A stretch of 14,786 bases of DNA from NCBI GenBank assembly GCA_013152945.1, contig JAADFL010000003.1, positions 1-14,786 of the forward strand, written 5' to 3'. Position 1 is the first letter of the stretch. Every line of letters starts with the position of its first letter. Both the position numbers and the translations under genes were made by a program. The notes beneath the pieces were generated by a model. That model was not told the DNA's origin, did no database searches, and saw only the letters and a program-made list of their open reading frames with translations. This document shows positions 1 through 14,763 of the stretch, in pieces. This DNA comes from Deltaproteobacteria bacterium. Its GTDB lineage: Bacteria > Myxococcota_A > JAADFL01.

Positions 1-87
1 TCCCTTGGGCGTCGCATGCCACCCGGCCCGCATGATTCCCCTTGTAATCACAAATGTTTCCAAACCTCCCCCTCCACAACCTGGGTC

Positions 88-118
88 GGGAGAAAAAGAA
101 AAAGAAAAAGAAGAGGGG
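88..118. repeat. Homopurine tract with GAAAAA hexamer repeat
   Basis: A 31-base run of purines only contains three exact tandem copies of GAAAAA (92-109), flanked on the left by a pyrimidine-rich stretch (about 64-78). It lies in the leader region ahead of the HEAT-repeat gene. The open frame through it encodes an improbable Arg/Lys-rich low-complexity peptide, so I do not call a gene here. Such tracts can vary in length by slippage. No function is claimed. Confidence 0.6.
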
Positions 119-156
119 TCGGGGGAGGATCAGGGGAAAATAAAGGGCTATCTAAT

Positions 157-186
157 TTGACTAATCAACGCCTAATTATGTATTCA
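157..186 (+). promoter_or_regulatory. Possible weak sigma70-type promoter
   Basis: TTGACT (157-162) is a good -35 match. It is followed after 18 bases by TATTCA (181-186), a poor -10 match. It sits about 30 bases ahead of the likely start of the HEAT-repeat gene, in a locally AT-rich stretch, which is where a promoter would be expected. The -10 is weak, so this is only a candidate. Confidence 0.25.
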
Positions 187-217
187 TCTTTTTGTATAGA
201 ACTCTTTGGAGAGATTG

Positions 218-2176
218 GTGGGAGAGCAAGAAAAGGGTGGGCCAGATGTAAATGGTCCCCAACAAGCAGGGCCCGGGAAAAACGGGATTGACCCAAATCA
301 GGCTTCACATGACAGTCCCTCGGCACTTCCTCCTCCTCCTCTGAAACCGCCTATTGAAAAGCCACATACTTTTAAGCAAGCAAATTCGACCAATCGATCT
401 GCCGTGTTTGTGAAGCCAGGTACAAGGAATGATAGAAAGAATAACGCTGGAGAGGTCAAAGAAGTTTCGGATCTTTTTAGTCTGATGAGAAAAACCCTCA
501 AGACATTTTCTCTTTATGGCAGCTCAAGTTCTGCTGCTCAAGATTTTCAGTCCAGGTTGTACAAGGTCTTTACACAAACGCTTGAACGACTTGGCCCGAT
601 TTCCCTGCGAATAGATTCTTCGTCACTTATTTATCATGGTGAAACTGTGCTATCAGAAGATTCGTCAGTGGAATCCTATTTATATCGCCTCTACAGCACC
701 GGCATAAGGTATTTGACTTTCAGGCCCGGCCTTAACATAGAAGAGCTGTCCGAGTTCCTTCACATACTTTCCCTGGACCCGAATACCAGGGAACTCCAGG
801 ACGATGACCTGGTAACACTATTTTGGAAAAGTGATTTTAATAATATCCACTATATTGTAGTCGAAGGATTCACAGAGGCAGGGAACAAACAAGAAGACCA
901 GGAAAATGTCGACTTCGAAGCCGCACTTTCCAGTATTCTCGACGCAGTCGAAAACGAGTTGCCCCCTGAACAAATAGTTCACTCTGTACGGATATCAGAA
1001 GAAGACATAAACTCCTCTCCTCCAGCTATACAATTGGAGCAATTCGGGCCTTCCAAGGACAAGGATTCAAATGCAAAGGTATTCTTGCTCACCGACCAGG
1101 AGATGCTGGAAATTCAGACTCGGATATTGTCCAAGCCACCGGAATACGACTTGGCAAAAGTCACCGACATGCTGATCGAACTCATGGCATGGGAAAGCGA
1201 TTCAACGGAAGTACAAAATATCTTGGACTCATTGCTCCTGATTCTTGATTATGCCTTGAGTCGCGACATGTTCGAAATCGCGTCCAGGGTTGTGGGCGGT
1301 ATCAAATGGATAACAATTCCCAGAAAAGATGGCCATACTTATTCTGAAGCCGCAATTCAGGCTGCTCACTCCGGGTTACTGGAAGCATCACTACCCGAAA
1401 GAATCAAACCCTTGTTGTCCGCCCTCTCGGATGAGAAGAATCATTCGAGAATAACAGCCCACTTGAGGGCACTACCGCAGCAGGCGGCCGAAGTACTGTC
1501 TGACCTGTTGGTGGAGGTGCCGGAACGGGTACACAGAGATATAATCTCATCCGTTATTGTTCGATTGGGACGAAATAATCCACAAATCTTCGTCTCTAGA
1601 CTGGAACATTCAAAATGGTTCGTTGTCCAGGCTATGGTGAATATTCTCGGCCAAATCGGACAACACGAACACCTCCCGGCCATATTGAAGGTATACGAAC
1701 ATGAAAACCCGGAAGTCCGTGCCGAAGTAGTCGATGCAACGGCCAAGTTCACTTTGGAAGAAGTCAAATATTTCTTGTCCAAAGCTCTTTTCGACGAGGA
1801 CAAGAGAGTCAGGATAAAAGCCATAACTCAAATGTCCAGATTCAAAGGATCGGACACAGCCAAGTACCTGCTCGGCCAAGTCAAGGACACATCTTTCCTC
1901 GACAAGAACCGGCAGGAACAAAGAGCATGGTTCAAGACAATATCCGAGGTAGGAGATGAAAGCATCATACCTGAACTCGAAGAGTTGGTAACAGCGAGAA
2001 AGTTCAGGAAAAGGAGCCAATACGAACACATCAGAGCCGGCTCCCTTTATGCGATCTCCAGAATAGGCGGTCCTGCTGCTGCAAAGGCCCTTGAAAAACT
2101 GTCAAAGGCGAGGTTAAGCGGCCTGATACGAGCGGCTCACAGCAGGGCACTGGAAGAGTTAAAGAAAAAAAAATAG
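218..2176 (+). CDS. HEAT-repeat protein with N-terminal module shared with the downstream HD-GYP protein
   Basis: No catalytic family is recognised. From GTG 218 the product is 652 residues and has no signal peptide or membrane segment, so it is probably cytoplasmic. Residues 1-80 are low-complexity, rich in Pro, Gly and Asn, and likely disordered. Residues about 86-186 form a module ending in an LTF motif plus an EEL..FL helix, and the next gene has a similar module. After an acidic linker, residues about 400-650 are tandem alpha-helical pairs of HEAT type with the usual Pro/Asp-x-VR turn signatures (for example NPEVRAEVVDA and DKRVRIKAI near 1711-1830). HEAT arrays serve as protein-binding scaffolds, so a partner-binding role is inferred. 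Start choice: GGAG at 208-211 is 6 bases before GTG 218. An in-frame TTG at 206 lacks a good ribosome site, and the first in-frame ATG is not until 485. The next gene follows after 54 bases, probably in the same operon. Confidence 0.85.
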   Translation: MGEQEKGGPDVNGPQQAGPGKNGIDPNQASHDSPSALPPPPLKPPIEKPHTFKQANSTNRSAVFVKPGTRNDRKNNAGEVKEVSDLFSLMRKTLKTFSLYGSSSSAAQDFQSRLYKVFTQTLERLGPISLRIDSSSLIYHGETVLSEDSSVESYLYRLYSTGIRYLTFRPGLNIEELSEFLHILSLDPNTRELQDDDLVTLFWKSDFNNIHYIVVEGFTEAGNKQEDQENVDFEAALSSILDAVENELPPEQIVHSVRISEEDINSSPPAIQLEQFGPSKDKDSNAKVFLLTDQEMLEIQTRILSKPPEYDLAKVTDMLIELMAWESDSTEVQNILDSLLLILDYALSRDMFEIASRVVGGIKWITIPRKDGHTYSEAAIQAAHSGLLEASLPERIKPLLSALSDEKNHSRITAHLRALPQQAAEVLSDLLVEVPERVHRDIISSVIVRLGRNNPQIFVSRLEHSKWFVVQAMVNILGQIGQHEHLPAILKVYEHENPEVRAEVVDATAKFTLEEVKYFLSKALFDEDKRVRIKAITQMSRFKGSDTAKYLLGQVKDTSFLDKNRQEQRAWFKTISEVGDESIIPELEELVTARKFRKRSQYEHIRAGSLYAISRIGGPAAAKALEKLSKARLSGLIRAAHSRALEELKKKK

Positions 2177-2230
2177 ACACGATGGCTGATTTCATACTGG
2201 ATTAACGGATCTGAAATTTGCTCGGAGCTT

Positions 2231-3652
2231 TTGTTGGAAGATCAGGAAAAAAAGATCAAGGAAAAGTTGAATCGCCTGGGCGAAAGTTTGATTAACCAGC
2301 TTTTCATGCTTATCCGAACACTCAAGATACACCAAATCGACAACGAGGCATTTTCAAGGCCCTTGGAATCATTACGGGACACCATAAACAGGATAATAGA
2401 CATTTCTGGAGATGCACGCATCATCGGCGTGGGTAAGGATGTATACTTGAACGGTCTACGCATCAGGGTCAAGTACAGGAATATTGATTGCGCATCTTTC
2501 CTCGTGGAACAATTGGCCGGCAAGGACATTGGAGACCTGACCTTCACAAAGCATATCGAAGTCCCCCAGCTCAAGCAATTCCTGGTCATGTTTTCGAGGC
2601 AAGCCAAAGATGACACGACGGCCAAACAAACATCCAAGCTACCCGGGATCTCAATCGGGACTTATAGGAAACTGGTAGACGACCTTGGAGGCGGACAGCA
2701 TCTGCTTGACAAGAAAAAATATGCTCTTCGTGTGTACACAAGAGCCATAATAACATTAAAGGCTCACGTGGAGGCGTTAAAAAGGGGAGAAAACGGTCTG
2801 CCCGGAAGAAAGCTCCAGAGAGTAATACAGGAGATCTGCGACATCGCATCAGGGGAAACCAATCTATTAATAGGATTGGCATCTATCACGCCACCCCTGG
2901 AAGAAGACCAACTCTACTATCATTCCGTCAACGTGGTATTACTATCCGCCGGGCTGGCACAAAGATTGGATCTACCCAGGCAGGAGGTGGCGGAAATTGC
3001 GCTTGCAGCTTACCTGCATGACACCGGCATGGCCTACATACCCAGGGAGGCTATCAACAAATCAGGAGAACTCACACCGGAAGAAAGGGTAAAGGTATCC
3101 AGGCACGTTCTTCAGTCTCTGAGAAATCTGATTAAAAGCGGCATGCTTGAAAATCTTAGAATAATGCCGCTAATAGTCGCATATGAACATCACCTGCGGT
3201 ACGACGGTAAGGACAGGCCTCCCGGTGCGACCCCGGTGAACTCGGTGTCGCAGATAGTATCTCTGGCAGATTCATACTGCGCATTAACGTCCGACAAGTC
3301 ATGGAGAAAAGCCTATCGACCCGACGAGGCCTTGAGAATCATGCTTTCCGAAGCAGGTAAAAAATTCGATCCCTTGTTGCTCAAGGCCTTCATAAACCTG
3401 GTCGGCATCTATCCCATCGGGACTGTTGTCACATTGGATACAGGGGAAATAGCCATGATCTTCATGAACACGGACCAACCTGACAGGCCGGTGGTAAAGC
3501 TGCTCTTGACATCGGACTGGAAAAAACCGGGTCCTTTGAGACATTACGACCTCTCCGAGATCGATGAAACAGGAGAATATGTCAGAAGTATTGTGGGAGC
3601 AATCAGCGCAGAAGAGTTCGGCATCAACGTAGCCAAGGCCCTCCTGGATTAA
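2231..3652 (+). CDS. HD-GYP-type phosphohydrolase (putative cyclic-di-GMP phosphodiesterase)
   Basis: A 473-residue soluble protein. Residues about 24-123 resemble the N-terminal module of the preceding HEAT protein. Residues about 225-400 are an HD-GYP domain, a family that hydrolyses cyclic-di-GMP or related cyclic dinucleotides at a metal centre. The expected metal-site residues are visible: H231, H263-D264 (HDTG), H292, H320-H321 and D347. The GYP signature after the paired histidines is degenerate: the family pattern HHERxDGxGYPxG reads HHLRYDGKDRPPG here (320-332), so Gly-Tyr are replaced by Asp-Arg. The protein could be an active phosphodiesterase with changed specificity or an effector. 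A short C-terminal segment (about 390-473) resembles the beta-rich tail often attached to HD-GYP proteins. The start is TTG 2231 or TTG 2234; GGAG at 2224-2227 favours 2234 (6-base spacing). It probably shares a transcript with the HEAT gene 54 bases upstream. Confidence 0.88.
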   Translation: MLEDQEKKIKEKLNRLGESLINQLFMLIRTLKIHQIDNEAFSRPLESLRDTINRIIDISGDARIIGVGKDVYLNGLRIRVKYRNIDCASFLVEQLAGKDIGDLTFTKHIEVPQLKQFLVMFSRQAKDDTTAKQTSKLPGISIGTYRKLVDDLGGGQHLLDKKKYALRVYTRAIITLKAHVEALKRGENGLPGRKLQRVIQEICDIASGETNLLIGLASITPPLEEDQLYYHSVNVVLLSAGLAQRLDLPRQEVAEIALAAYLHDTGMAYIPREAINKSGELTPEERVKVSRHVLQSLRNLIKSGMLENLRIMPLIVAYEHHLRYDGKDRPPGATPVNSVSQIVSLADSYCALTSDKSWRKAYRPDEALRIMLSEAGKKFDPLLLKAFINLVGIYPIGTVVTLDTGEIAMIFMNTDQPDRPVVKLLLTSDWKKPGPLRHYDLSEIDETGEYVRSIVGAISAEEFGINVAKALLD

Positions 3653-3759
3653 TTTAGTAAAAAGTAATAAGTAAGATTCCTTGTAACCCGCGGCCCCGGC
3701 CCTCCCCACCCAGGTTGATTTTCAAGGTGCCTGAAATATGCTGTTATTTCATGAAGTAG

Positions 3760-3779
3760 GGGTGGTTCGCGAACCGCCC
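3760..3779. repeat. REP-like palindrome 1
   Basis: GGGTGGTTCGCGAACCGCCC is a 20-base, fully self-complementary inverted repeat (one G-T pair) centred on TTCGCGAA. It lies in the gene-free region after the HD-GYP gene. Similar GGTTCGCGAACC-centred palindromes are, from memory, frequent dispersed intergenic repeats in several bacterial phyla. Copy number in this genome cannot be seen from one window. Confidence 0.6.
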
Positions 3780-3856
3780 ATGCGAGATCCAATCCAAACG
3801 ATTTGCTTTTTTATCTCCTGGACCAGGCCGGCTTTCCACCGCCCTCACCCCCTTTT

Positions 3857-3889
3857 GTCCCCCTCTCCCGCAGAGCGGGCGAGGGGGAT
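3857..3889. repeat. REP-like palindrome 2 (CCCTCTCCCGC / GCGGGcGAGGG)
   Basis: A hairpin of about 14 base pairs with a single T/C mismatch and a three-base AGA loop (arms 3858-3871 and 3875-3888). It sits in a C-rich context (CCCTCACCCCC just upstream). The CCCTCTCCCGC...GCGGG.GAGGG form matches a palindromic intergenic repeat that I recall as common in proteobacterial genomes. The structure is seen directly; membership of a repeat family is inference. Confidence 0.65.
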
Positions 3890-3907
3890 TGTTTGGTACC
3901 AATGATT

Positions 3908-3926
3908 CCTGGGGCGTTGCCCCAGG
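3908..3926. repeat. REP-like palindrome 3 (CCTGGGGC-GTT-GCCCCAGG)
   Basis: A perfect 8-base-pair stem with a GTT loop, followed by the T-rich CTATTTTATTT and then by a smaller CCCC-TTT-GGGG hairpin (about 3939-3952) and TTTT. The block looks like one compound repeat unit. It might also act as a bidirectional transcription end between the HD-GYP gene and panB. Confidence 0.6.
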
Positions 3927-4000
3927 CTATTTTATTTCGCCCCTTTGGGGGCTTTTGGGGAATTGGTTTTATTTGATTTAATGGGACGAATCCCCTTCCT

Positions 4001-4056
4001 ACTGACATATTCATATTCATTCGGCAGTACCACTGACATTTTAATTCGGCTACCAC
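4001..4056. repeat. Imperfect direct repeat upstream of panB
   Basis: Two head-to-tail copies share three blocks in the same order: ACTGACAT, ATTCGGC and TACCAC. Copy A spans 4001-4033 and copy B 4032-4056. The gaps between blocks differ (10 and 2 bases versus 4 and 0). It ends 111 bases before the panB ATG. It could be a protein-binding site or a decayed duplication; nothing in the sequence decides between these. Confidence 0.4.
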
Positions 4057-4152
4057 ACCTGCGGTTACAATCCTGGACAAAGGCATTTGGTTGAAGTAAA
4101 AGGTTTGGTGTTCGTTTTCGAAAGTAGGGAACGATTAGCTTGCTGGTTGATT

Positions 4153-4158
4153 GGAGGG
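4153..4158 (+). promoter_or_regulatory. Ribosome binding site that fixes the panB start
   Basis: GGAGGG lies 9 bases before ATG 4168. It supports this ATG over the in-frame TTG at 4087, which has no ribosome site and would add 27 residues not expected in this family. Confidence 0.7.
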
Positions 4159-4167
4159 CTTAAAGAA

Positions 4168-5034
4168 ATGTCTGATAAGAAAAAACTGATGATTCAAGAC
4201 CTTAAGAAAAAGAAAACCAAGGGAGAAAAAGTTGCGTGGATAACAGCCTATGACTATCCCACAGCTCAATTCGCCGAGGCTGCCGGGATGGACATGCTTC
4301 TGGTAGGCGACTCCCTTGGAATGTGCGTTTACGGCTACGAAAGCACGGTTCCTGTTACAATGGACCAATGTATCTATCATTCTGAAGCAGTACGCAGGGC
4401 TGCACCCAATACCTTCGTGGTAGGCGACATGCCTTTCATGAGCTACCAATCCGCTTTATTCAAGGCAGTGGAAAATGCAGGCAGATTCATTAAGGAAGCA
4501 GGATGCGATGCTATCAAGCTCGAGGGCGGCAAGCGAATAATTCCACAAATAAAGGCCATACTGGATGCAGGCATTGTCGTATGCGGACATATCGGATTGA
4601 CCCCACAAAGTTCAGGTCAATTGGGCGGTCACAAGGCACAAGGCAGGACTGCGGATTCCGCGAAATTACTCATCGAAGACGCGTTCGCCATACAGGAAGC
4701 CGGCGCCCAATTGCTTCTCCTGGAGGCCGTGCCCCCGGAACTGGGCAAGTATATCACGGAAAACCTTGACATCCCGGTTTACGGAATCGGCGCAGGAATG
4801 TATACAAATGGACAACTATTGATAGTCTCGGACATAATAGGACAATTTCAGGCCTTCACTCCTAAATTCGTAAAAAAGTACTGCAATGTAGCCGAGGTCG
4901 TGACAAACGCTCTCAAGCAATACGCAGACGAAGTCCGGGAAGGCGCATTCCCCAAAGAAGAGCATTGTTACAAAATGCTCAAGGGCGAGTTCGACAAGTT
5001 CAAGGCAATGTTGGATGAAGGCGGCAAGGAATAA
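4168..5034 (+). CDS. panB: 3-methyl-2-oxobutanoate hydroxymethyltransferase (ketopantoate hydroxymethyltransferase)
   Basis: Transfers a one-carbon unit from 5,10-methylene-tetrahydrofolate to 2-oxoisovalerate to give ketopantoate, the first committed step to pantothenate and coenzyme A, in the cytoplasm. The 288-residue product is close to the usual 260-290. Family signatures run through the whole protein: TAYDYPTA (26-33), the metal-binding Asp of VGDS (D48) and of GDMPF (D87), IKLEGG (K117, E119), HIGLTPQS (141-148), the GGHKAQGR loop (153-160) and the catalytic Glu of LLEAVP (E186). The later GAG...DGQ signature reads GAGMYTNGQ, with Asn214 where Asp is usual, a mild deviation. panC and panD are not adjacent, so this is an isolated pan gene. 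The next gene begins 164 bases downstream, with a stem-loop and a possible promoter between them, so co-transcription is uncertain. The link to a CoA-ester protein next door is suggestive only. Confidence 0.95.
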   Translation: MSDKKKLMIQDLKKKKTKGEKVAWITAYDYPTAQFAEAAGMDMLLVGDSLGMCVYGYESTVPVTMDQCIYHSEAVRRAAPNTFVVGDMPFMSYQSALFKAVENAGRFIKEAGCDAIKLEGGKRIIPQIKAILDAGIVVCGHIGLTPQSSGQLGGHKAQGRTADSAKLLIEDAFAIQEAGAQLLLLEAVPPELGKYITENLDIPVYGIGAGMYTNGQLLIVSDIIGQFQAFTPKFVKKYCNVAEVVTNALKQYADEVREGAFPKEEHCYKMLKGEFDKFKAMLDEGGKE

Positions 5035-5068
5035 GCTGAATCCTAACTTGTCTCTCGAACCAATCATT

Positions 5069-5096
5069 CGACGAAACGGTTGTTTCCCGTTTGTCG
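5069..5096. other. Stem-loop between panB and the fusion gene
   Basis: The arms CGAC-g-AAACGG and CCGTTTGTCG pair over 10 bases with one bulged G and enclose a TTGTTTC loop. No T-run follows, so this is not a standard intrinsic terminator. It could attenuate read-through or stabilise the panB message. The loop TTGTTT also forms the -35-like element of the candidate promoter described at 5080-5107. Confidence 0.4.
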
Positions 5097-5107
5097 CAGC
5101 TTATAAA
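5080..5107 (+). promoter_or_regulatory. Candidate promoter for the acetylation fusion gene
   Basis: TTGTTT (5080-5085), 16 bases, then TATAAA (5102-5107), in an AT-rich patch about 90 bases ahead of ATG 5199. The -10 is good and the -35 moderate (TTG only). The -35 lies in the loop of the stem-loop at 5069-5096. It would allow separate expression of the fusion gene from panB. Confidence 0.35.
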
Positions 5108-5198
5108 ATATATTACAAAGCTCCGGAAAGCATCGGTAACTAAAGAAAGGTGACCAAGGGAAGACGATTGGAGGAAGACGTTCCAAGAAGGGCGTTCA

Positions 5199-8100
5199 AT
5201 GGCTGATTGGCAGGAAAAATTTTCTCACAAGATGACGACCGCAGATATCGCCATATCCAAACTACGTAACGGTCAATGCATATTCATAGGCTCTGCTTGC
5301 AGCGAACCTCAAAAACTGACATCTTCTCTTGCAACCTTGGGCAACCGGTTCGTAGATGTCGAAGTAATTCACCTCATGAGTCGCAGCCGAATCTGCCTGA
5401 CCTCTCCGCAACTTGCCGGTCACTTCAGGTACAACACCTTCTACGTCGGAAAAGCGGTCAGCGATGCAATAACCGGGGGCGATGCGGATTTCACGCCTGT
5501 TTCCCTTCACGAGCTTCCCGGAATGATAGCCAGCGGCAGAATCTTGATCGATGTGGCGTTGATACAGGTCAGCCCGCCTGATGATTTGGGTTTCTGCAGC
5601 CTCGGAATATCAGTGGATGCAGTCCGGGCCGCCGCCGAAAACGCCGGACTCGTGATAGCCCAGGTCAACCCGAGGATGCCGAGGGTGTTGGGTAACTCCT
5701 TTATCCGGGTCGAAGACATAGATTTCCTTGTAGAGGGTGATGAGCCCTTGATAACGGTCGAATCGCCGGTACTCGATGCGATATCCCTCACTATCGGAAA
5801 ATTCGTTGCCGATCTCATCGAGGACGGATCGTGCCTCCACCTGGGAAGCGGGGCCATTCCTTGCGCAGTTACGAGACACCTGGAAATGAAGCATGACCTG
5901 GGAATACATACAATGGTCATTACAGACGATATTCTTCGCCTGATATATTCCGGGGCTGTCAGCAACATGAAAAAAAACACGGATAGGGGAAAGAGCGTCG
6001 GAGCCATGGCAGTGGGTTCTGAAAAACTGTACGATGCTCTCAACGTCACTCCTCACATCGAGCTTCATCCATTGAATCATGTCAGTGATCCCGCCATAAT
6101 ATCGAAAAACGATAACTTCGTCTCGGTCAATTCAGTCCTGGAGATCGATCTTTCCGGGCTCGGGCTTGGAGATGCCCTGTTGGTGGGGCAGGACGACTCT
6201 GGCATAGGAAGTAACCTGGACTTCGTGTATGGCGCCCATGAATCACAGGGAGGCAAAGCCATACTGGCCTTGCCGTCTACATCCTCCGATGGTTCAAGGT
6301 CCAGGATAGTGCCCAAGATAACGGAAAGCTCCGGGCTCCACATCGACCGCGCTGCAGTCGATTTTGTAGTCACCGAGTACGGTTCGGTCCAGTTGACCGG
6401 ATTATCGTTGAGGGAAAGGGCCATCGCACTGATAAGCATAGCCCATCCCAGGTTCAGGCAAACGTTGTTGGAAGCCGCAAAGAAATTGAGGTATGTTCCG
6501 TCCGATCAGAGAATAAACCCCGAAGGAGGTGAAGTATATCCTACGGAATACGAGGTCCAATACACCTGCAAAGACGGTTTGAAGGTTAAATTCAGGCCGA
6601 TAAAACCGTTCGATGAACGCAGACTGAAAAGGATGTTCTATTCCCAGTCACCCGAAACCTTGTACGCGAGATTTCATACCACGGTAAAGGCCATTCCGGA
6701 AGGGACCATTCAAAATCTTGTCAATATCGATTACAGCAAGGACGTTTGCATTCTGGGCCTGGTCGGCCCTGAAGAAAATCCCAGGATCGTAGGCATGGCC
6801 TCGTATATGTATCACCCGCCTAGTAACATGGGTGAATTCGACATGGTTGTTGCGGAAGACTTCAGGGGCCGGGGAATAGGCTCGTTTCTATCCCACTACA
6901 TTACCGAGATTGCCAGGAGCCGGGGACTCTCCGGAATGTGGGCCGATGTCCTCGTTTCCAACGAAGCCGCCAAGACACTGTTCGAACGCATGTGGCCCAG
7001 GGCAGCAAGGAAAAGAGAAGGCGGCGTGGAAACTTTCACCTACCGTTTCGAAGATGATGATAAGCCCTTGCACCCCCTCAAAAGCGCCTTTGTCTATTCA
7101 GAAAGGTTTTCAGACTTCGAATACAGTCCCGATCATCCTTTTAAGCCCTCCAGGGCAAAAGATTCGTACAGGCTCTGCCTGCGGCAGGGCTTTCTGAAAG
7201 AGCCATGGATGAGGGTGGTAGAGCCAAAGCCCATGGCGGAAGAAAGACTGGTCGAATCCCATGACCCGGGATACCTCGATGCCTTGAAGAAGGCCGGCCA
7301 GGGAAAATTCGACGAAAGTTTTCTCGGTTACGGGCTGGGAACCGATGATTGTCCGATATTCAAGGGCCTCTGGGATTACATACTCTTGTACTGCTCATCC
7401 ACCCTGGCCGCCGTCGATCTCCTGCTGGAGAACCGGTACGAACTCGTCTTTTGTCCATTGGGCGGATTTCACCACTCGGGCCGCGAACATGCCGAAGGTT
7501 TTTGTTACGTCAATGACGTTATCGTGGCAATAGACTACCTGTTGGCTCACGGACTGCGGGTAGCCTTCGTGGACATAGATGCTCACCATTGCAACGGCGT
7601 ACAAGATGCCTACTATGAAGACGACCGGGTCCTTGTAATATCCCTTCATGAAAGTGGAAAAACTCTTTATCCATGGTCGGGTTTCGAGACCGAAATTGGA
7701 AAAGACAAGGGTAAAGGATACAACATGAACATTCCCTTGCCGCGGGAAACGGACGATGAATGTTACCTCAAAGCATTTACCGCCCTTGTGCCCCCGGCGT
7801 TGAGCGCTTTTGCCCCGGATGTATTGATAGGAGAAATAGGCGCGGATACACATCGCAATGACCCATTGACGAATCTAAAGCTGACGAATAACGGTTATGC
7901 GGGATGCATCGAAATTCTCCGGGATATCTCACCGCGAATCCTCTTGCTTGGCGGCGGCGGGTACGATCCGGACACCACCGCAAGGTCCTGGGCAAGGGCC
8001 TGGGCAATGGCGAATAATATCGAGCAAACCCCTGGTTACATGGCAAACCTCGGTGGGACTTTCCTGGGTTCCCTCGAACTCGATGACGGTTCATTGGAAG

Positions 8101-8216
8101 ATATGAGATATTACACGACGGGAAAAATAAAAGAGGATATAATCTTGGAGATAGACAGGATAATCCAATTCCATAAGGAAAATATACTCAAGCTGCTGAT
8201 GCCCGCCAGCCGTTGA
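5199..8216 (+). CDS. Three-domain fusion: CoA-transferase-like, GNAT acetyltransferase and HDAC-like deacetylase
   Basis: A soluble 1005-residue protein. Residues about 1-435 match the acetyl-CoA hydrolase/transferase family (for example SPPDDLGFCSLG, GSGAIPCAV, and the EYGSVQLTGLSLRERA tail). The catalytic Glu of the HTEM motif is replaced: the sequence reads LGIHTMVITD, with Met239, so transferase chemistry is doubtful. Residues about 450-620 are a GNAT domain with the acetyl-CoA pyrophosphate loop RGRGIG (556-561). Residues about 628-1005 are an arginase-fold histone-deacetylase-like domain with the key residues visible: H758-H759, zinc ligands D794 and H796 (DIDAHH), D883 (GADTH) and Y922 (GGGGYD). 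CoA-transferase/GNAT fusions are known as an annotated bacterial architecture; the added deacetylase is unusual. Inferred role: acetylation and deacetylation of protein lysines, perhaps acetyl-CoA synthetase, with the first domain sensing CoA esters. A polyamine or small-molecule deacetylase role is the alternative. The ATG start has AAGAAGGG about 7 bases upstream. Confidence 0.93.
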   Translation: MADWQEKFSHKMTTADIAISKLRNGQCIFIGSACSEPQKLTSSLATLGNRFVDVEVIHLMSRSRICLTSPQLAGHFRYNTFYVGKAVSDAITGGDADFTPVSLHELPGMIASGRILIDVALIQVSPPDDLGFCSLGISVDAVRAAAENAGLVIAQVNPRMPRVLGNSFIRVEDIDFLVEGDEPLITVESPVLDAISLTIGKFVADLIEDGSCLHLGSGAIPCAVTRHLEMKHDLGIHTMVITDDILRLIYSGAVSNMKKNTDRGKSVGAMAVGSEKLYDALNVTPHIELHPLNHVSDPAIISKNDNFVSVNSVLEIDLSGLGLGDALLVGQDDSGIGSNLDFVYGAHESQGGKAILALPSTSSDGSRSRIVPKITESSGLHIDRAAVDFVVTEYGSVQLTGLSLRERAIALISIAHPRFRQTLLEAAKKLRYVPSDQRINPEGGEVYPTEYEVQYTCKDGLKVKFRPIKPFDERRLKRMFYSQSPETLYARFHTTVKAIPEGTIQNLVNIDYSKDVCILGLVGPEENPRIVGMASYMYHPPSNMGEFDMVVAEDFRGRGIGSFLSHYITEIARSRGLSGMWADVLVSNEAAKTLFERMWPRAARKREGGVETFTYRFEDDDKPLHPLKSAFVYSERFSDFEYSPDHPFKPSRAKDSYRLCLRQGFLKEPWMRVVEPKPMAEERLVESHDPGYLDALKKAGQGKFDESFLGYGLGTDDCPIFKGLWDYILLYCSSTLAAVDLLLENRYELVFCPLGGFHHSGREHAEGFCYVNDVIVAIDYLLAHGLRVAFVDIDAHHCNGVQDAYYEDDRVLVISLHESGKTLYPWSGFETEIGKDKGKGYNMNIPLPRETDDECYLKAFTALVPPALSAFAPDVLIGEIGADTHRNDPLTNLKLTNNGYAGCIEILRDISPRILLLGGGGYDPDTTARSWARAWAMANNIEQTPGYMANLGGTFLGSLELDDGSLEDMRYYTTGKIKEDIILEIDRIIQFHKENILKLLMPASR

Positions 8217-8305
8217 TATGCGAATCCGGAGCCGTTGCCGATAGTCGTTTCCGCATTCCCTTATAAAAAGAAACACCCTTTGCAGTAATGTTTCGCAACA
8301 AAATG

Positions 8306-8333
8306 TTGACCATTGCGGACTCTGTGGTATTTT
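8306..8333 (+). promoter_or_regulatory. Sigma70-type promoter for the cysteine-rich lipoprotein
   Basis: TTGACC (8306-8311), 16 bases, TATTTT (8328-8333). The -35 matches consensus at five of six positions and the -10 at four. It implies a leader of roughly 50 bases before ATG 8394 and independent expression from the fusion gene, which ends 90 bases earlier. Confidence 0.45.
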
Positions 8334-8393
8334 CTAAGGTTGATGGAAGTCTTCGGCGATGTTCGAGTTACTCCTCTCAAGGAGGGAACCCTG

Positions 8394-10286
8394 ATGAATA
8401 GAAAAGAACAAACAGAACTGAAAATTTTCTTTTCCTTGCTTACATTGTATTTATTGCTGGCCCTATCCGGTTGTCCCGGCGGTTCCGGCAACAATAACAA
8501 CAACAATGAAGGTTGCCTCAACGATATCGAATGCGGCCAGGGCAAACTGTGTGACTTGAAAACCGGCAAATGCTTCGACGGCGAATGCAGGTCCAGCAAG
8601 GATTGCAGCCAGGGAGAAACATGTAAAAACTATTATTGCAAGTCTGCTTGTGAAAGTGACGATGATTGCGAGGGAGATGGAGCCAGGTGCTACCTGCCCA
8701 CCAAGTCCTGCTTTGGTGGAGAAGCCTGCGAGAAGACGTCCGACTGCAGCCAACCCGTACAAGGTCAGACATGGGTGACATGTAGTGAACTGGGGGCAAA
8801 GTGTACCCCGGATTTTCCAACTTGTACAAGGGACACGCTGGACACCGATTGTCCTGCCGGATTCGTATGCAAGTCCGGTTATTGTGCAGAAAAGCCCCCG
8901 CTATGCGGGAGTGATGAAGATTGCCCGGCCGGGTTTGTATGTAACCTGAACAATGCCCAGTGTGAACGCAGCACCAATTGTCCTGATGGTTACTGCCCGG
9001 ATCCGGTGGACGGGGTATGCCGCCGATGCCCTTGTGACGACTCGAAACAGTGCGGGGTCGAAGAATGGTGTGATGCTTTCAATTACCAGCAATGCAGAAA
9101 GAAATGCCAGGGAGACAATGATTGTTTGAAGGCAAACGGAGAGGAATGCCAGGATGACGGCACATGTAGAGCGTCCAAACTTTGCGATGTAGGCGAAGAT
9201 TGCTCTTCCTGTGCATGCAAGGAAGGGCTGGTATGTGCCACTGACCACAGGGATTCCGATAAACCCAAGAAATGCGCCACGGCATGTGACATCTACACCA
9301 ATGATTGTGATTCGGGTATGCTTTGTGAACCTGTAATGAATGGCGGAGTCTTTCCTGTAAAAGGCGGTGGATGCGTACTGCCCAACGGCGGCAAGGCTGC
9401 AGGCAATCCGTGCGACCAGGCTAATTATTGTGAAGCCAATCTCCTTTGCCAAAGCGGCACCTGCCGTACAATCTGCAACCCGGACGGCCAACCGGGTTGT
9501 GACACAAATGTCGACTGTACTGCATACATGGGCATTGGAGTTTGTGGTGACGTTGTCGGCTGCATAACCGACTCTGAATGTGGAGCTCCGGACATGATAT
9601 GCTGGGAGGAAAAATGCCAGCCGGGTTGTCACAAGTCTGATTCACCGGTGAAGTGCGTGGATTCCCAGCCGTGCGATCCGAGTACGGGCAGGTGCAAAGG
9701 TTCGGGCCGATGCAGCTCCGACTCCGAATGCAGTCCACCCGATACGATTTGCGACCTCGACAGGCAACCACCTGACTGTGTTCCAAGCTGTCTGACCGTA
9801 GGTTGCCCCGGGGGCAAGGCATGCGATCCCACGACCGGAAGGTGTAAAGACAAGTGTGCCGGTGATGAAAGTTGCAACCCTCCAAAGACCATCTGCGAAC
9901 ATGATGTTTGCATTCTCGGATGCAATGAGCCCGGCGGCCTGGATTGCGGTGACCAGGAATGCATCAAGGCTACAGGAAGGTGTGGGCAGGCAAACTACTG
10001 CGAAAAGGATTCGGACTGCAACCCGCCCATGACGAAATGCGATGAAGACTGGAAAAACTGCGTAGACGGATGCGGGACAAAAGGATGCGATGCAGGATAT
10101 GAATGCGATAATGAATCCGGTGACTGCGTTTACAACCCCTGTACACACATTGGATGTCCGTGTACAGGCTTTGCCGATTGCGATCCCGGCCTTTTTTGTG
10201 GAACATTCACTAAAACATGCACCAAGACTTGTGGTGGCGACCAGGACTGTGCTCCTTACTACTGCACGAATGGCTTTTGCCAATAG
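8394..10286 (+). CDS. Cysteine-rich surface lipoprotein with tandem eight-cysteine repeats
   Basis: A 630-residue exported lipoprotein of unknown function. The start is ATG 8394 with AAGGAGGG 8 bases upstream. An in-frame earlier start would put charged sequence ahead of the signal peptide. A hydrophobic stretch (about 11-24) leads to the lipobox LSGC with lipidated Cys27. The +2 residue is Pro, not Asp, which by the usual rule favours the outer membrane. A Gly/Asn linker including six Asn follows. The rest holds about 96 cysteines in C-x5-C-x6-C style clusters with many Asp/Glu, resembling the disulfide-rich modules common in myxobacterial-type surface proteins. The last part (residues about 390-585) has four tandem repeats of 48-50 residues with exactly eight cysteines each. 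There are no catalytic motifs. A disulfide-bonded, possibly calcium-binding stalk or adhesin is plausible but unproven. Confidence 0.9.
   Translation: MNRKEQTELKIFFSLLTLYLLLALSGCPGGSGNNNNNNEGCLNDIECGQGKLCDLKTGKCFDGECRSSKDCSQGETCKNYYCKSACESDDDCEGDGARCYLPTKSCFGGEACEKTSDCSQPVQGQTWVTCSELGAKCTPDFPTCTRDTLDTDCPAGFVCKSGYCAEKPPLCGSDEDCPAGFVCNLNNAQCERSTNCPDGYCPDPVDGVCRRCPCDDSKQCGVEEWCDAFNYQQCRKKCQGDNDCLKANGEECQDDGTCRASKLCDVGEDCSSCACKEGLVCATDHRDSDKPKKCATACDIYTNDCDSGMLCEPVMNGGVFPVKGGGCVLPNGGKAAGNPCDQANYCEANLLCQSGTCRTICNPDGQPGCDTNVDCTAYMGIGVCGDVVGCITDSECGAPDMICWEEKCQPGCHKSDSPVKCVDSQPCDPSTGRCKGSGRCSSDSECSPPDTICDLDRQPPDCVPSCLTVGCPGGKACDPTTGRCKDKCAGDESCNPPKTICEHDVCILGCNEPGGLDCGDQECIKATGRCGQANYCEKDSDCNPPMTKCDEDWKNCVDGCGTKGCDAGYECDNESGDCVYNPCTHIGCPCTGFADCDPGLFCGTFTKTCTKTCGGDQDCAPYYCTNGFCQ
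9561..10145 (+). repeat. Four tandem eight-cysteine protein repeats
   Basis: The first cysteines of the repeats are at residues 390, 440, 488 and 536 of the lipoprotein. Every repeat has eight cysteines in the pattern C-x5-C-x6-C-x(4-8)-C-x3-C-x(4-8)-C-x(4-5)-C-x6-C. Shared motifs include DSEC.PP.T.C near the start and CDP.TGRC at the end. The DNA of the copies has diverged, so this is an old protein-level duplication and not a recent tandem DNA repeat. Confidence 0.8.
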
Positions 10287-10385
10287 CGTCTGCAGTCTTT
10301 ACCGGCGATAGAGTTCTCTTGGAAGGTATTTAATTTTCCCGGGTTGCCGGGCAATCCAAACTTCTCTTGCTGAATTGCAGAATGT

Positions 10386-10946
10386 TCAGCGTTTCGCCGC
10401 ACCATGCCAGTTCGTTCCGGGAAACACAATATCCTTCAACATTTTCAACGCCCATTTTCCGAGTTCCGGGTTGGAAGCGATCACGGCTTTTTCAGGCACT
10501 TCAACGGCAAAGCCCAACATCGCGGCCTCGGCTGCGGAATAATGAACAGTTCCCTCGGTGCATAGGCCCACGATTATCAAATGATTGACCCGCTCTTCTT
10601 TAAGTATATTCTCTATGCTGGTTCCCTTGAAAATACTGATCCTCTTAAAATCGAGGATATAGTCGCCGGGCTCGGGATCCAGGTCTTCCACAACTTCGGC
10701 TCCAATGGTTTCCTTCAAAGCGTACTCGTGGCCGTTCTTGAATACGGAATCGCCCTTTTCATGAACTTCCCTCATGTATATTACCATGCCGTTTTCTTTC
10801 CTGACCCGCTTGGCTAGCTTCGCAATAGGATCAATGATGTCCACCGCTCCTTTAACAGGATTGGAGCCTCCATCGAACACAAAATCATTTTGCATCTTTA
10901 TTATCAGGAGCGCTGTCCTGTCTTTTTCCGGTTCCGTGCTGCTCAT
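10386..10946 (-). CDS. Isochorismatase-fold protein, probably catalytically inactive
   Basis: A 186-residue cytoplasmic protein of the isochorismatase-like hydrolase superfamily, which includes nicotinamidases and isochorismatases and normally uses an Asp-Lys-Cys triad. The fold is recognisable: LLIIKMQNDF (13-22), SIFKGTSIENIL (104-115) and IIVGLCTEGTV (124-134). All three triad positions differ: Lys17 replaces Asp in the xDMQNDF motif, Phe100 sits where Lys of KxRYSxF is expected (with Lys101 next to it), and Thr133 replaces the nucleophilic Cys of GxxTDxCV. A nearby Cys129 is not at the usual position. It may be a pseudoenzyme or have different chemistry. The start is ATG 10946: GGAG lies 6 bases upstream, and the in-frame TTG at 10958 overlaps that ribosome site. 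It is last in a minus-strand series, 127 bases after the PKD lipoprotein, and converges on the cysteine-rich gene. Confidence 0.85.
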   Translation of the reverse strand: MSSTEPEKDRTALLIIKMQNDFVFDGGSNPVKGAVDIIDPIAKLAKRVRKENGMVIYMREVHEKGDSVFKNGHEYALKETIGAEVVEDLDPEPGDYILDFKRISIFKGTSIENILKEERVNHLIIVGLCTEGTVHYSAAEAAMLGFAVEVPEKAVIASNPELGKWALKMLKDIVFPGTNWHGAAKR

Positions 10947-11073
10947 GTGGTACTCCAAGCCGGCAATTCAGTCATTTTCCACCTTCCCCCCTTTTTCTTG
11001 CTGCGATTCAAGAGGCAAAACCTATCGTGTACGCATTATGTCCGTTGCAGTCATTCTCCAAAAGCACTCCATT

Positions 11074-12420
11074 TCATTTCCGAATGGAAGCGGAGCCTCC
11101 CCTGTATATAGTGGAAGTAGCCATGAAATAACCCTCTTCACCGCTGTACAACCTTTGATGCTCACCCCTTGTAAGCATGATACTCAAACTTTGCGATCCA
11201 TCCGGAATCAAACCTGTTGCTTCCCCGGATACCTTGAAGGAACCTGTATCCATGGGTGTACAAATACAATCGTAACTAACGCCGGTCTCTTCGTTTGCTG
11301 TTGTGATGACAATGGTCATTCTTTCCACCTGATCGTCGATGGCGCCGCTCCAGCGTATTGCCACGGCATCACCAGGGGTAAAATACAAGTCCCGGTCGGT
11401 CAGGTCAGGCTCGGTTATCTGGAAATCCGCAGGTGTGGTCAGTATTCCTGACATGGGCGGAACCGTTTCATCCTTGTTTCCTTCAATTTCTATTGTAAGC
11501 ATCGACGAGTAGTCGAATATCCTTTGCGCATCCTTTGCAATATTCGACTTGTAACTTATCCCGCCGTTATCACCCTCTTGAGGCGCCAGGACTATCGGAT
11601 CAATGATTCCCCCGGAAATGGTAATAAGGCCTCCGGACAATGTTTCCGAAGGCAAGCAATCCTTGCCCGGATCATCGGGCCTGGCTATCGTCACCCTGCA
11701 ATCTCCAATATCAGTTACCTGGTGTTGATATCCGCAATCCTGGACCTTCGGCCTGCTGAATCCGGCAAACGCGGACACACTCGTTCTCGTTTCTCCCTTG
11801 AACTCCACGAGCGCCACGTACCCACTGAACTTGGTCTTTTCTTGTTGTTCCTGCTCTTCTTGTTCGGATTTTTCTTCTTGTGCGTCCTGTTCGTTTGAAA
11901 CATCACTTGGGACATCGTTTTCATCGACAAAAAGGTCGAGAGAGGCGTCTTCCTCATCGCCCGTCTCCCCTGCATCAGGTTCAAAAGGCTCATCAAGTCG
12001 TTCCAACTCGTTCCCGGCCCGGTCGATTTCCATGCCGTATTCTTCAGGCCGTTTTTTTACCTCTACAGGTTTCGCAGCCTGCGATATGCCTCCATTGTTA
12101 TCCCGTATTTCGAGCTTGACCCAATAAATGCCTTGCTTTGAAAAGATGTGCTCCATTTTCGGTCCGGATGTCTTGTACCAACGTGCCGGAGATGAATCCC
12201 CAAAATCAAAAGCATATTCAACAATGGCTCCATCCCTGTCAATCGAAGCGGAAGCATCGAAAAAAACTTTTTCTCCAGGTTCGGGTTCAGCCGGACTGTA
12301 GACAAAGTCCGCCGTCGGAAGCTTGTTACTCCCATTACTACAGGCGAATAATGGTATTGCAAATAATACCGAAGAGGCCCGAACAAGGAATGCCAATCTT
12401 GAGTCACTGCCGTGTTTCAT
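11074..12420 (-). CDS. PKD-domain lipoprotein with acidic linker
   Basis: A 448-residue exported lipoprotein. From ATG 12420 a signal peptide leads to the lipobox LFAC with Cys27 as the lipid site. Residues about 35-120 form a PKD-type immunoglobulin-like beta domain with its typical signatures (DASASIDRDG, YAFDFGD, HIFSKQGIYWVKLEIRD). Residues about 125-195 are a highly acidic, low-complexity linker ending in a Glu/Gln-rich run. Residues about 195-448 form a mainly beta C-terminal region with a few cysteines (CGYQHQ, GDCRV, KDCLP, DCIC) that I do not recognise; similar regions occur in other deltaproteobacterial-type lipoproteins. Role: surface or periplasmic binding, inferred. TTG 12450 is an alternative in-frame start but would add residues before the signal peptide. 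A promoter is visible at 12506-12535. Confidence 0.88.
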   Translation of the reverse strand: MKHGSDSRLAFLVRASSVLFAIPLFACSNGSNKLPTADFVYSPAEPEPGEKVFFDASASIDRDGAIVEYAFDFGDSSPARWYKTSGPKMEHIFSKQGIYWVKLEIRDNNGGISQAAKPVEVKKRPEEYGMEIDRAGNELERLDEPFEPDAGETGDEEDASLDLFVDENDVPSDVSNEQDAQEEKSEQEEQEQQEKTKFSGYVALVEFKGETRTSVSAFAGFSRPKVQDCGYQHQVTDIGDCRVTIARPDDPGKDCLPSETLSGGLITISGGIIDPIVLAPQEGDNGGISYKSNIAKDAQRIFDYSSMLTIEIEGNKDETVPPMSGILTTPADFQITEPDLTDRDLYFTPGDAVAIRWSGAIDDQVERMTIVITTANEETGVSYDCICTPMDTGSFKVSGEATGLIPDGSQSLSIMLTRGEHQRLYSGEEGYFMATSTIYRGGSASIRK

Positions 12421-12505
12421 AATAAATGCATTGCCTCCCGAACCCTCCAAAGCCGCTCACAGCCCAACCAAACAAACTCAATGCAGCCGGGCTCCATTAA
12501 AAATA

Positions 12506-12535
12506 ATGATAAGTAACAAATACGCCTGCGGTCAA
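12506..12535 (-). promoter_or_regulatory. Promoter for the PKD lipoprotein
   Basis: On the minus strand, TTGACC (12535-12530), 18 bases, TATCAT (12511-12506). Both boxes match the sigma70 consensus at five of six positions. It implies a leader of about 80 bases and separate control from the two membrane-protein genes upstream, whose last stop codon is at 12558-12560. Confidence 0.5.
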
Positions 12536-12557
12536 CCTTGCTGTTGCTTCGAGTAAT

Positions 12558-13040
12558 TCAATTATCATCTTGCAGGACCTTTTTCCTGGCTGTTCGGGAC
12601 ATTTCACGAATCTGTTGCACCAATTTTTTATGTTTAACCAGAAAAGGGGTGAAAGAAAAATATCCTTTCAGCGTAATTACCTGGTACTCTGTGAGCATCC
12701 ATGAGTACACAGCCCCTTCGTATACGTAAATTCGCAGCACATCCGACCAATCCGCGTTCACTCTTTTTAACGGCCCCTTGTATCGCAGACCTTCTTTGCA
12801 GACCCTGATCTCCGTCAACCAGTAAATCGAACCGAAAAACATGAAAAAAATTACAAAAAATCCGGCCCCTATGTACATTGTTAATCTTTGCTCATCCGAC
12901 ATTATCAAAATTGTCAATATCGCTCCCCAAAAAGATGCTGCAATCAAAACAGGCACCTTGATGAGCAATGAATATCTGTAGATTACCTCATTGAAGCCGG
13001 TGTTTTGTGCATCGGTATTTTTTCCCTGTGACTTTTTCAC
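12558..13040 (-). CDS. Two-helix membrane protein with bacterial PH-like domain
   Basis: A 160-residue protein of unknown function. Two hydrophobic segments (residues about 25-47 and 54-75) form a membrane hairpin. The C-terminal part (about 77-150) resembles the small beta-barrel PH-like domains that follow such hairpins in bacteria. Characteristic features are EIRVCKEGLRYKGP followed by a conserved-type Trp-Ser-Asp (ADWSDVLRIYV) and a basic C-terminal helix. The start is GTG 13040 with AGGAG only 3 bases away, an unusually short gap. No other in-frame start precedes the first helix convincingly. It follows the neighbouring membrane-protein gene by 44 bases and is probably co-transcribed with it. 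Confidence 0.72.
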   Translation of the reverse strand: MKKSQGKNTDAQNTGFNEVIYRYSLLIKVPVLIAASFWGAILTILIMSDEQRLTMYIGAGFFVIFFMFFGSIYWLTEIRVCKEGLRYKGPLKRVNADWSDVLRIYVYEGAVYSWMLTEYQVITLKGYFSFTPFLVKHKKLVQQIREMSRTARKKVLQDDN

Positions 13041-13084
13041 AAGCTCCTGTCCAGGTCGACGGTTTCATGGGATTTTCAATGCGA

Positions 13085-13429
13085 TCATCCTTTACCCGTG
13101 GTTTCATCCTCTTTTTCCGTTTGTTCCAGGTCCTCCACCATTTCGGTCACGGATCTATGCCTGAGCACCATCAACATTGCCAATCCGCCCATAAAGGCCA
13201 GGAAGAATCCCACGTATATTGCTGCTTGATCCCGATCCCTTCTGACCGATGCTTCAACAGTCTCCTTACTCCATCCCTGATTACCGTTCTCTTTGTCCTT
13301 GAGCAACGAGTCCTCATATCTTCTCTGCGAGGCATCCTGTGTAAGATACGCAGTGATGCCGACAAGTAATCCGGAAACGATGAGCACCACCGAGAAGAAC
13401 AAACCGCCTCTTTGTAAAAAACCTTTCAT
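13085..13429 (-). CDS. Small two-helix membrane protein, unknown function
   Basis: A 114-residue protein with two predicted transmembrane helices (about 9-29 and 69-89), a charged extracytoplasmic loop of about 39 residues between them, and a charged, acidic C-terminal tail (about 90-114) on the cytoplasmic side. I do not recognise a family. The start is ATG 13429 with GGAGG 9 bases upstream. It is the first gene of the minus-strand series, followed after 44 bases by the PH-like membrane protein, so the two may act together. An extended -10 promoter lies just upstream (13482-13490). Confidence 0.7.
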   Translation of the reverse strand: MKGFLQRGGLFFSVVLIVSGLLVGITAYLTQDASQRRYEDSLLKDKENGNQGWSKETVEASVRRDRDQAAIYVGFFLAFMGGLAMLMVLRHRSVTEMVEDLEQTEKEDETTGKG

Positions 13430-13481
13430 TGTAACCGGCCTCCAACACCCTCTATCAGGTCATCAAGCACAATTCAAATTT

Positions 13482-13490
13482 ATCATACCA
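13482..13490 (-). promoter_or_regulatory. Extended -10 promoter for the minus-strand membrane-protein genes
   Basis: On the minus strand, TGGTATGAT is an extended -10 element (TG, one base, then TATGAT at five of six matches). The -35 region (TTCAGG) is weak, as is common for extended -10 promoters. It lies about 50 bases ahead of ATG 13429. Confidence 0.4.
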
Positions 13491-13533
13491 TTACCAGGTA
13501 ATCCACCTGAACTATCGCCCAATTCTACCGGGT

Positions 13534-13562
13534 TTGAAAACATTTAAAAAAGGTTGTACCAT
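13534..13562 (+). promoter_or_regulatory. Promoter for the secreted TPR protein
   Basis: TTGAAA (13534-13539), exactly 17 bases, TACCAT (13557-13562): five of six and four of six consensus matches, with ideal spacing. The leader to ATG 13630 is about 60 bases. It diverges from the minus-strand promoter about 45 bases away, so the two could share a regulator. Confidence 0.45.
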
Positions 13563-13629
13563 ACTTGGCGATTATGGTTGATCAGATGCTCGTAAACATG
13601 ATGCCTATGATAAAGCATGGAGGTCTCCA

Positions 13630-14682
13630 ATGCGTTTGGATTCATTAATTTCCATTACAATCCTATTCGCCGTGATTTATGGTCCCATTGGAAAGGCACA
13701 GGAACAGCAGAGAAAAATACCGGTCAGCCAAAACCCTGAAATAAAAAAAATAGAAACAAAAGAATCAGACTTCGAGAAATTGATTGAAGAAGCAAACACC
13801 TCATTCAGATTCCTGGATTTCGAAGGGGCCTTGCAAAAGCTGGAGCAGGCCAGGGTATTGCCCGGAATAACCCGGATAGACCTTGAAAGAATACTTGCCT
13901 TGAAAGGCATGTGCCTGGCTCCGCTGGGAAGAGATAAAGAAGCGGAATATGCATTCAAGGCCCTATTGTCATTGGACCCGGCGTATCGACTGGATCCGGA
14001 CTTGTCGCCAAGGTACAGGACCCCGTTCAACAGGGTTCTTGAACAAGGCATACCCAGGCTGGTTGTTGAAATTCATGCTCCAAAATTCGTCACCACTGGG
14101 AAAAACCTCGTATTCTCTATAGACAAGGTAAGCGATCCCGCGAAGCTGGCAGACCATGCTCTGATACATTACAAGAATACGGGACAAGGAGGTTACACCT
14201 CCCAGGTTATCGATCTTCCCGAGCCGCCGGGTTCAACAGAACTGAATTTGAAACCTGCCGAATGGCAACAAGATGATAAAGGACCAATCGAGTGGTACGG
14301 AGAGATTTTCGACCGGCATGGAATCTTACTTATGACAAAGGCGGATCCGCAGTATCCCTTGTCAATTGAAGTCAGAAAGAACAAACCGAAACCCAAGAAG
14401 GCTGTTGCACTCACAGAGCCGGCAAGGCCAACCGACAACAATTCACCTGAAGTGCTGACCGCGAACCTGGAAGGCAATATGAAACACAAGCTTGAGATGC
14501 CGAATCCACCAAGTCCGGGTGCTGAAAACAACAAGGTCCGGGAAAGCTCCTGGTACAAGAAATGGTGGGTATGGTCTTTGATCGGAGGAAGCGCCGTTGC
14601 GGTTGCAGCAACTGCGGCGATACTGGCAACAGCTCTGAAACCCACCAACGGCTCACGGGACCTAACCTTGGTTTTTCACTAA
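13630..14682 (+). CDS. Secreted TPR-containing protein with C-terminal membrane helix
   Basis: A 350-residue exported protein with no known enzyme domain. The start is ATG 13630 with GGAGGT 5 bases upstream. A signal peptide (about 1-23, likely cleaved after GKA) is followed by charged sequence and a tetratricopeptide-like helical region (about 50-125) with the typical LDFEGALQKLEQAR and LGRDKEAEYAFKALLSLDP helices. A beta-rich middle part (about 140-255) resembles the C-terminal domain often linked to these TPRs in myxobacterial-type proteins. A Pro/Asn-rich low-complexity linker (about 258-305) precedes one transmembrane helix (about 312-335) and a short tail. This layout suggests a periplasmic protein-interaction module held in the inner membrane. 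It is separated by a divergent promoter region from the minus-strand membrane-protein genes. Confidence 0.85.
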   Translation: MRLDSLISITILFAVIYGPIGKAQEQQRKIPVSQNPEIKKIETKESDFEKLIEEANTSFRFLDFEGALQKLEQARVLPGITRIDLERILALKGMCLAPLGRDKEAEYAFKALLSLDPAYRLDPDLSPRYRTPFNRVLEQGIPRLVVEIHAPKFVTTGKNLVFSIDKVSDPAKLADHALIHYKNTGQGGYTSQVIDLPEPPGSTELNLKPAEWQQDDKGPIEWYGEIFDRHGILLMTKADPQYPLSIEVRKNKPKPKKAVALTEPARPTDNNSPEVLTANLEGNMKHKLEMPNPPSPGAENNKVRESSWYKKWWVWSLIGGSAVAVAATAAILATALKPTNGSRDLTLVFH

Positions 14683-14752
14683 CCGGGACCTTCATATTTG
14701 CTCCGAAGTCTGATTTGTCATAGTCTATTAATCAATTTAGTCAACGGTGTAC

Positions 14753-14758: not shown

Positions 14759-14763
14759 GCACA

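Follow-up and report, generated by a model that had tools for sequence, protein, structure and literature searches.

We describe here a gene in a 14,786-nucleotide stretch of DNA (hereafter the window) from a Deltaproteobacteria bacterium (assembly GCA_013152945.1, contig JAADFL010000003.1, positions 1 to 14,786) that is predicted to encode, on one chain of 1005 amino acids, a pseudo-CoA-transferase, a Pat-type GNAT acetyltransferase and a class I-like histone deacetylase (HDAC), in that order (5199..8216, + strand). Judging from the residues kept and lost in each domain, we consider it fairly probable that this fused protein is a single-chain reversible protein-lysine acetylation switch with a pseudoenzyme sensor. 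In such a switch the Pat-type GNAT domain would use acetyl-CoA to acetylate a lysine on a metabolic enzyme and the class I/AcuC-like HDAC domain would take the acetyl group off again, while the pseudo-CoA-transferase would probably be a sensor of a CoA-ester ligand or an oligomerisation scaffold, like the inactive acyl-CoA synthetase domain of Pat/PatZ. With writer and eraser tethered at a fixed 1:1 ratio, the sensor domain would set the balance between them. The original prediction, made from the letters of the window, knew of no characterised three-part form; neither CoA-transferase/GNAT nor three-part proteins are described in the literature searched, which missed most subscription papers, and the three-part architecture appears to be undescribed. 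It is the architecture that is new; the kind of regulation is known.

The fused gene and its relatives

The reading frame runs for 1005 codons from an ATG start with no internal stop, and a ribosome-binding-like site, AGAAGG, was read directly in the sequence 7 bases 5' of the ATG (5186..5191, +); promoter and terminator scans gave counts close to shuffled expectation. Pfam matches, all above curated cut-offs, place PF02550 (AcetylCoA_hydro) at residues 22-187 (8.9e-23), PF13336 (AcetylCoA_hyd_C) at 273-427 (5.5e-48), the best stretch of PF00583 (GNAT) at 524-598 (2.6e-12) and PF00850 (Hist_deacetyl) at 646-936 (7.9e-81). These matches uphold the domain identities and borders of the original prediction, which had proposed a domain search, a structure prediction of the full chain and a search for the same domain order in other genomes as checks. 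An AlphaFold2 model of the full chain (mean pLDDT 82.8, from an alignment of 21 relatives) has outer domains that match solved CoA-transferases and HDACs with Z of about 47-48: the CoA-transferase domain superimposes on 2oas with a DALI-scale Z of 48.5 (2.4 Å, 423 residues) and the HDAC domain on HDAC2 with a Z of 46.7 (2.4 Å, 354 residues).

We searched 377 genomes from the phylum and the classes of three of the hits; the depth of the search is thus one phylum, and the organism's own class is represented by its own genome alone. The three-domain chain was found in that genome and in seven more, namely G364, G429 and G243 (one genus), G414, G402, G197 and G228. Some fused copies end at contig ends, and that of G402 is interrupted by one inside the HDAC domain. 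Because the same uninterrupted order recurs in other genomes at 49-51% identity, it is not a product of chance or of an assembly join; an assembly chimera or read-through is ruled out, and the single unbroken frame first proposed for this gene is borne out. The fused proteins form a single clade (100/100). Their identity to the window protein is 47-53% for the CoA-transferase part, 40-48% for the GNAT and 53-55% for the HDAC, and dN/dS among near relatives is 0.10-0.17, 0.04-0.12 and 0.10-0.16, respectively. Purifying selection is of similar strength on all three domains and, since dN/dS is about 0.1 throughout, none of them is decaying. A single-protein search of genome contigs gave nothing except an HDAC match, from a record of Aquificaceae, and no locus among plasmid records covered 80% of the query protein.

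The N-terminal CoA-transferase domain

The N-terminal domain (residues 1-432; 5199..6494, +) is assigned by PF02550 and PF13336, PDB matches and fold to the 4-hydroxybutyrate/butyryl CoA-transferase family and is predicted to be inactive as a transferase. Its PDB matches include 9vag (E 3.9e-106) and 3gk7, and over residues 1-440 it shares the fold and 34-41% identity with 4-hydroxybutyrate and butyryl-CoA:acetate CoA-transferases (3GK7, 2OAS, RipA); unlike those enzymes, the fused protein has lost the catalytic glutamate and CoA-contacting loop residues. In the alignment to 3GK7, M239 (5913..5915, +) takes the place of E238; GSGAI (G216-I220; 5844..5858, +) is equivalent to the CoA-gating loop G215-I219, with Ile216 changed to Ser; and SGIGSN (residues 334-339; 6198..6215, +) is equivalent to the SGxGGQ loop, with N339 (Asn for Gln) at the position of the CoA-contacting Gln337. 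PMC11659651, citing Macieira 2012, gives E238 as the active-site glutamate of 3GK7 and describes the G215-I219 loop and Gln337 as touching CoA and as opening and closing the site.

The catalytic glutamate is gone in all eight fused proteins, where its position holds M (window), D, D, D, G, A, D and D, whereas 42 of 43 unfused relatives have E there and the remaining one has Q. Since the fused proteins are one clade, these losses are not eight independent events. The first loop, GSGAI in the window, is altered further in most other fused proteins (mostly to DRGPI, also to TPGPI), and the SGIGGQ loop, changed to SGIGSN in the window, is lost in the other seven. By fold and profile the domain thus resembles family I (Cat1) CoA-transferases, and it lacks their catalytic glutamate and CoA-contacting loops.

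Replacing the glutamate by Ala or Ser in a related family I enzyme abolishes activity, and a Glu-to-Asp mutant has lost transfer and retains partial acyl-CoA hydrolysis (PMC12400318). Given these mutants and the residues at the Glu position, CoA transfer by the N-terminal domain of the fused proteins would be very unlikely, and hydrolysis would be possible for the Asp forms only. CoA binding may persist; in the related enzyme the binding site for the phospho-ADP of CoA is remote from the glutamate (PMC12400318). We rejected the reading of this domain as an active CoA-transferase because the catalytic Glu is lost, and on sequence grounds the domain is predicted to be a CoA-transferase turned pseudoenzyme. 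With fold and selection kept and chemistry lost, these features point to a role in sensing or scaffolding, as in Pat/PatZ. The original prediction had proposed the CoA-ester domain as a sensor and had overlooked the missing Glu; that loss and the altered CoA loops strengthen its proposal.

The acetyltransferase and deacetylase domains

The GNAT domain (residues 454-615; 6558..7043, +) is of the Pat type according to its PF00583, NCBIfam and PDB matches: an NCBIfam model of mycobacterial Pat matches residues 454-613 (9.9e-17), and the best solved structures are 9it0, an 886-residue Pat-type protein acetyltransferase, and 4orf, a mycobacterial-type Pat. The glutamate of the 'AEF' strand is the general base in Pat. 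In the alignment to the 886-residue structure, E546 (6834..6836, +) coincides with this glutamate, and E is found at its position in eight of eight fused proteins. The acetyl-CoA pyrophosphate loop, RGRGIG, occupies residues 556-561 (6864..6881, +).

As in type I lysine acetyltransferases (KATs), a Pat-type GNAT with its catalytic glutamate lies C-terminal to another domain; the acyl-CoA synthetase domain of type I KATs has no Pfam match in the chain, and the CoA-transferase domain stands in its place. Pat/PatZ, with a CoA-ester enzyme domain and a GNAT, constitute class I-alpha, and type III KATs (class I-beta) have a regulatory domain followed by the GNAT, the kinds listed being ACT, cAMP and NADP+ (PMC6456759). 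The pseudo-CoA-transferase could by its place correspond to the N-terminal effector-binding domain of a type III KAT. A close parallel in kind is with Pat/PatZ/YfiQ (class I-alpha, type I KAT), where a catalytically dead CoA-ester-enzyme domain likewise precedes a Pat-type GNAT; there, however, the sensor is an NDP-forming acyl-CoA synthetase, whereas here it would be a CoA-transferase and a deacetylase is present on the same chain.

The HDAC domain (residues 629-1000; 7083..8198, +) has the arginase/deacetylase fold and is class I/HDLP-like by PF00850, PDB and fold, with HDAC2 (8.7e-57) and HDLP (5.5e-55) as the closest solved structures and HDAC1 also close. It has the catalytic histidine pair H758-H759 (7470..7475, +), the zinc ligands D794 and H796 (7578..7586, +) and D883 (7845..7847, +), and the catalytic tyrosine Y922 (7962..7964, +), and this active site is intact in all seven fused proteins that extend that far. 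Its His pair, Asp/His/Asp ligands, Tyr and proximity to class I are those of a classical Zn-dependent deacylase of the class I/AcuC-like kind. These residues and RGRGIG are present at the positions first proposed and are conserved and, with the catalytic residues kept in both domains, writer and eraser both appear to be active.

The HDAC superfamily includes acetylpolyamine amidohydrolases, and polyamine deacetylases carry a PEG or PIS gatekeeper motif (PMC11532494). Directly after D883 the window protein has DPLT, with Leu at the polyamine gatekeeper position; across the fused proteins the motif is DPLT, DPLS, DPLA or DPGS, never PIS or PEG. We rejected a polyamine deacetylase, if not with complete certainty, because this motif does not fit.

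The arrangement may also be compared with that of AcuA/AcuC of Bacillus, where a GNAT writer and a class I-like HDAC eraser oppose each other in the control of acetyl-CoA synthesis; in B. subtilis both act on AcsA (PMC13039410). AcuB is a separate adenine-nucleotide sensor that inhibits AcuC (PMC13121692). AcuA, AcuB and AcuC are three separate proteins, whereas here one chain carries writer, eraser and a pseudo-CoA-transferase.

Gene neighbourhoods, candidate targets and alternative explanations

Two-domain CoA-transferase/GNAT proteins, which resemble the first two domains of the fused protein at about 40% identity, are common in the phylum. Unlike the fused protein they have an intact transferase site, and they have no HDAC or have it as the next gene (G398, G389, G419). 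A gene for an ADP-forming acyl-CoA synthetase (ACD) directly adjoins many of them. In G398 and G389 the ACD gene is followed in an operon by the CoA-transferase/GNAT gene, with a 4-base ATGA overlap, and then by the HDAC gene about 12-25 bases further on; in G419 the same set is present, with HDAC and ACD genes beside the CoA-transferase/GNAT gene. These sets are an unfused version of the same team, and an operon that unites the same functions with an ACD supports a shared pathway.

Other fusions and pairings were noted as well. In a single frame elsewhere (L043:6641-9841, G007:C29), an Fe-S dicluster domain of about 430 residues is fused to a CoA-transferase with Gln in place of the catalytic Glu and to a GNAT; this is a second, different regulatory fusion that involves the CoA-transferase/GNAT pair, perhaps redox-sensing. 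The organism's own genome (G000:C1) has a further two-domain CoA-transferase/GNAT gene (L079:3581-7436) that adjoins a fused DAK2/FakA-like/DegV (fatty acid kinase-like) gene. Outside the phylum, in Actinomycetota, a plasmid of Tsukamurella tyrosinosolvens (NZ_LR134470.1; L100:2983-6916) has an 8-base overlap between acuC and a gene for a GNAT/acetate-CoA ligase (type II Pat); writer and eraser genes are paired there independently.

The neighbourhoods of the fused genes were followed along part of each contig. In the window, panB (4087..5034, +; PF02548 1.2e-107, TIGR00222 over cut-off), for ketopantoate hydroxymethyltransferase, which catalyses the first step towards pantothenate and CoA, lies 164 bases upstream on the same strand; it was rejected as a conserved partner, since the parts of contigs read have no panB at the other loci. 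Downstream, 8313-10286 encodes a putative lipoprotein of 657 residues, very cysteine-rich with repeated Cys motifs and without a Pfam match, and further upstream an HD-GYP-like (HD_5) protein (2231-3652) follows a HEAT-repeat protein (206-2176), probably as a signalling pair. Genes for topoisomerase VI A and B subunits, less usual in bacteria, are present in the same genome (L079:9763-12498, G000:C1).

Writer and eraser might instead have separate substrates or pathways, with only co-expression or shared localisation gained from their fusion and no one-target switch. The unfused operons show that co-expression alone would be a sufficient selective reason for linkage, and the SIR2 deacetylase found in all eight fused genomes might be the enzyme that opposes the GNAT; no SIR2 was detected in the three operon genomes. 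Set against this are the retention of the fusion by one clade across a wide span, every domain being constrained, and the independent occurrence of the same pairing in Tsukamurella and in acuA/acuC of B. subtilis, and we regard separate substrates as unlikely.

A further possibility concerns the isocitrate/citrate branch. AceK, the isocitrate dehydrogenase kinase/phosphatase, has opposing activities on one chain in central carbon metabolism. In G243 and G364 the fused gene has as neighbours the gene of a monomeric NADP-isocitrate dehydrogenase and those of both ATP-citrate lyase subunits, and aconitase belongs to the same cluster; in G228, of another class, it lies by genes for an unrelated eukaryote-type NADP-isocitrate dehydrogenase and one ATP-citrate lyase subunit. 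True ATP-citrate lyase (E <1e-80) is rare, with six of the 377 genomes having it, and three of the six carry the fusion. An AceK-like control of isocitrate dehydrogenase and ATP-citrate lyase by acetylation would account for these neighbours. However, ATP-citrate lyase was not found in four other fusion carriers, the organism's own genome, G197, G402 and G414, so it was rejected as a general partner; a helicase intervenes in G364 and a 0.86 kb gap in G228; and, since G243 and G364 are of one genus, the independent cases are two at most. We consider such control of this branch unlikely.

It is still less probable that the N-terminal domain is a working CoA-ester enzyme, a transferase or hydrolase that couples local acetyl-CoA turnover to acetylation. 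The fold is retained in full, parts of both loops remain in the window (GSGAI, SGIGS), and the Asp of five of the eight fused proteins recalls the mutant with partial hydrolase activity; but Asp is incapable of transfer and Ala and Ser forms are dead in that enzyme (PMC12400318), Met in the window and Gly or Ala in others replace the Glu, and none of the fused proteins has unaltered CoA loops. Small-molecule metabolism, in which the substrates of GNAT and HDAC would be amines (polyamines, for example) or an acetylated metabolite, is least probable in our estimate: both folds do include such enzymes, for example acetylpolyamine amidohydrolases (PMC11532494), but the HDAC is nearest class I and HDLP with DPLT in place of PEG or PIS, the GNAT is nearest the Pat/PatZ lysine acetyltransferases, and the operon partner is an ADP-forming acyl-CoA synthetase.

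For the reversible protein-lysine acetylation switch, the likeliest targets would be enzymes that make or consume acetyl-CoA, such as the AMP-forming Acs of the organism's own genome, and in other lineages the adjoining ATP-citrate lyase/isocitrate dehydrogenase branch would supply candidates. AMP-forming Acs is present in every fused genome, and in the own genome and G364 it contains PKTRSGKI, which matches the conserved acetylated RSGK motif of AcsA (PMC11532494). That the substrate is a protein, that writer and eraser share it, that a CoA ester is sensed and which enzyme is the target are all inferred. Several points weigh against the switch. Asp at the Glu position in five of the eight fused proteins, with residual hydrolase in related enzymes, is one; neighbours also vary by lineage (panB here, ATP-citrate lyase with isocitrate dehydrogenase in other lineages, and unrelated genes in G197, G402 and G414); no acs gene was seen adjoining a fused gene in the stretches read; with SIR2 in all eight fused genomes, deacetylation of Acs may fall to another enzyme than the fused HDAC; and the GNAT and HDAC folds are also found in enzymes with small-molecule substrates. 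The self-contained switch of the original prediction is thus supported in part: the fusion is real and conserved with writer and eraser residues kept, and in two other lineages the fused gene adjoins genes for ATP-citrate lyase and isocitrate dehydrogenase rather than acs.

More tentatively, and with a low probability in our estimate, writing and erasing on the same target by one chain under a CoA-ester-sensing pseudo-CoA-transferase would make this protein the acetylation counterpart of AceK, with isocitrate dehydrogenase and ATP-citrate lyase as targets in some lineages. AceK differs in that it acts by phosphorylation through one shared active site, whereas acetylation by two separate domains is predicted here. 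Little is known of what controls the direction of bacterial protein acetylation, since the two enzymes usually occur as distinct proteins under distinct regulation; with both fused to one putative sensor, direction could be tested in a single purified protein by point mutants in each domain. The family would also offer a clean case of an enzyme turned into a sensing pseudoenzyme, for which two-domain paralogues with an intact active site, present in the same genomes, and the unfused operon serve as comparators.

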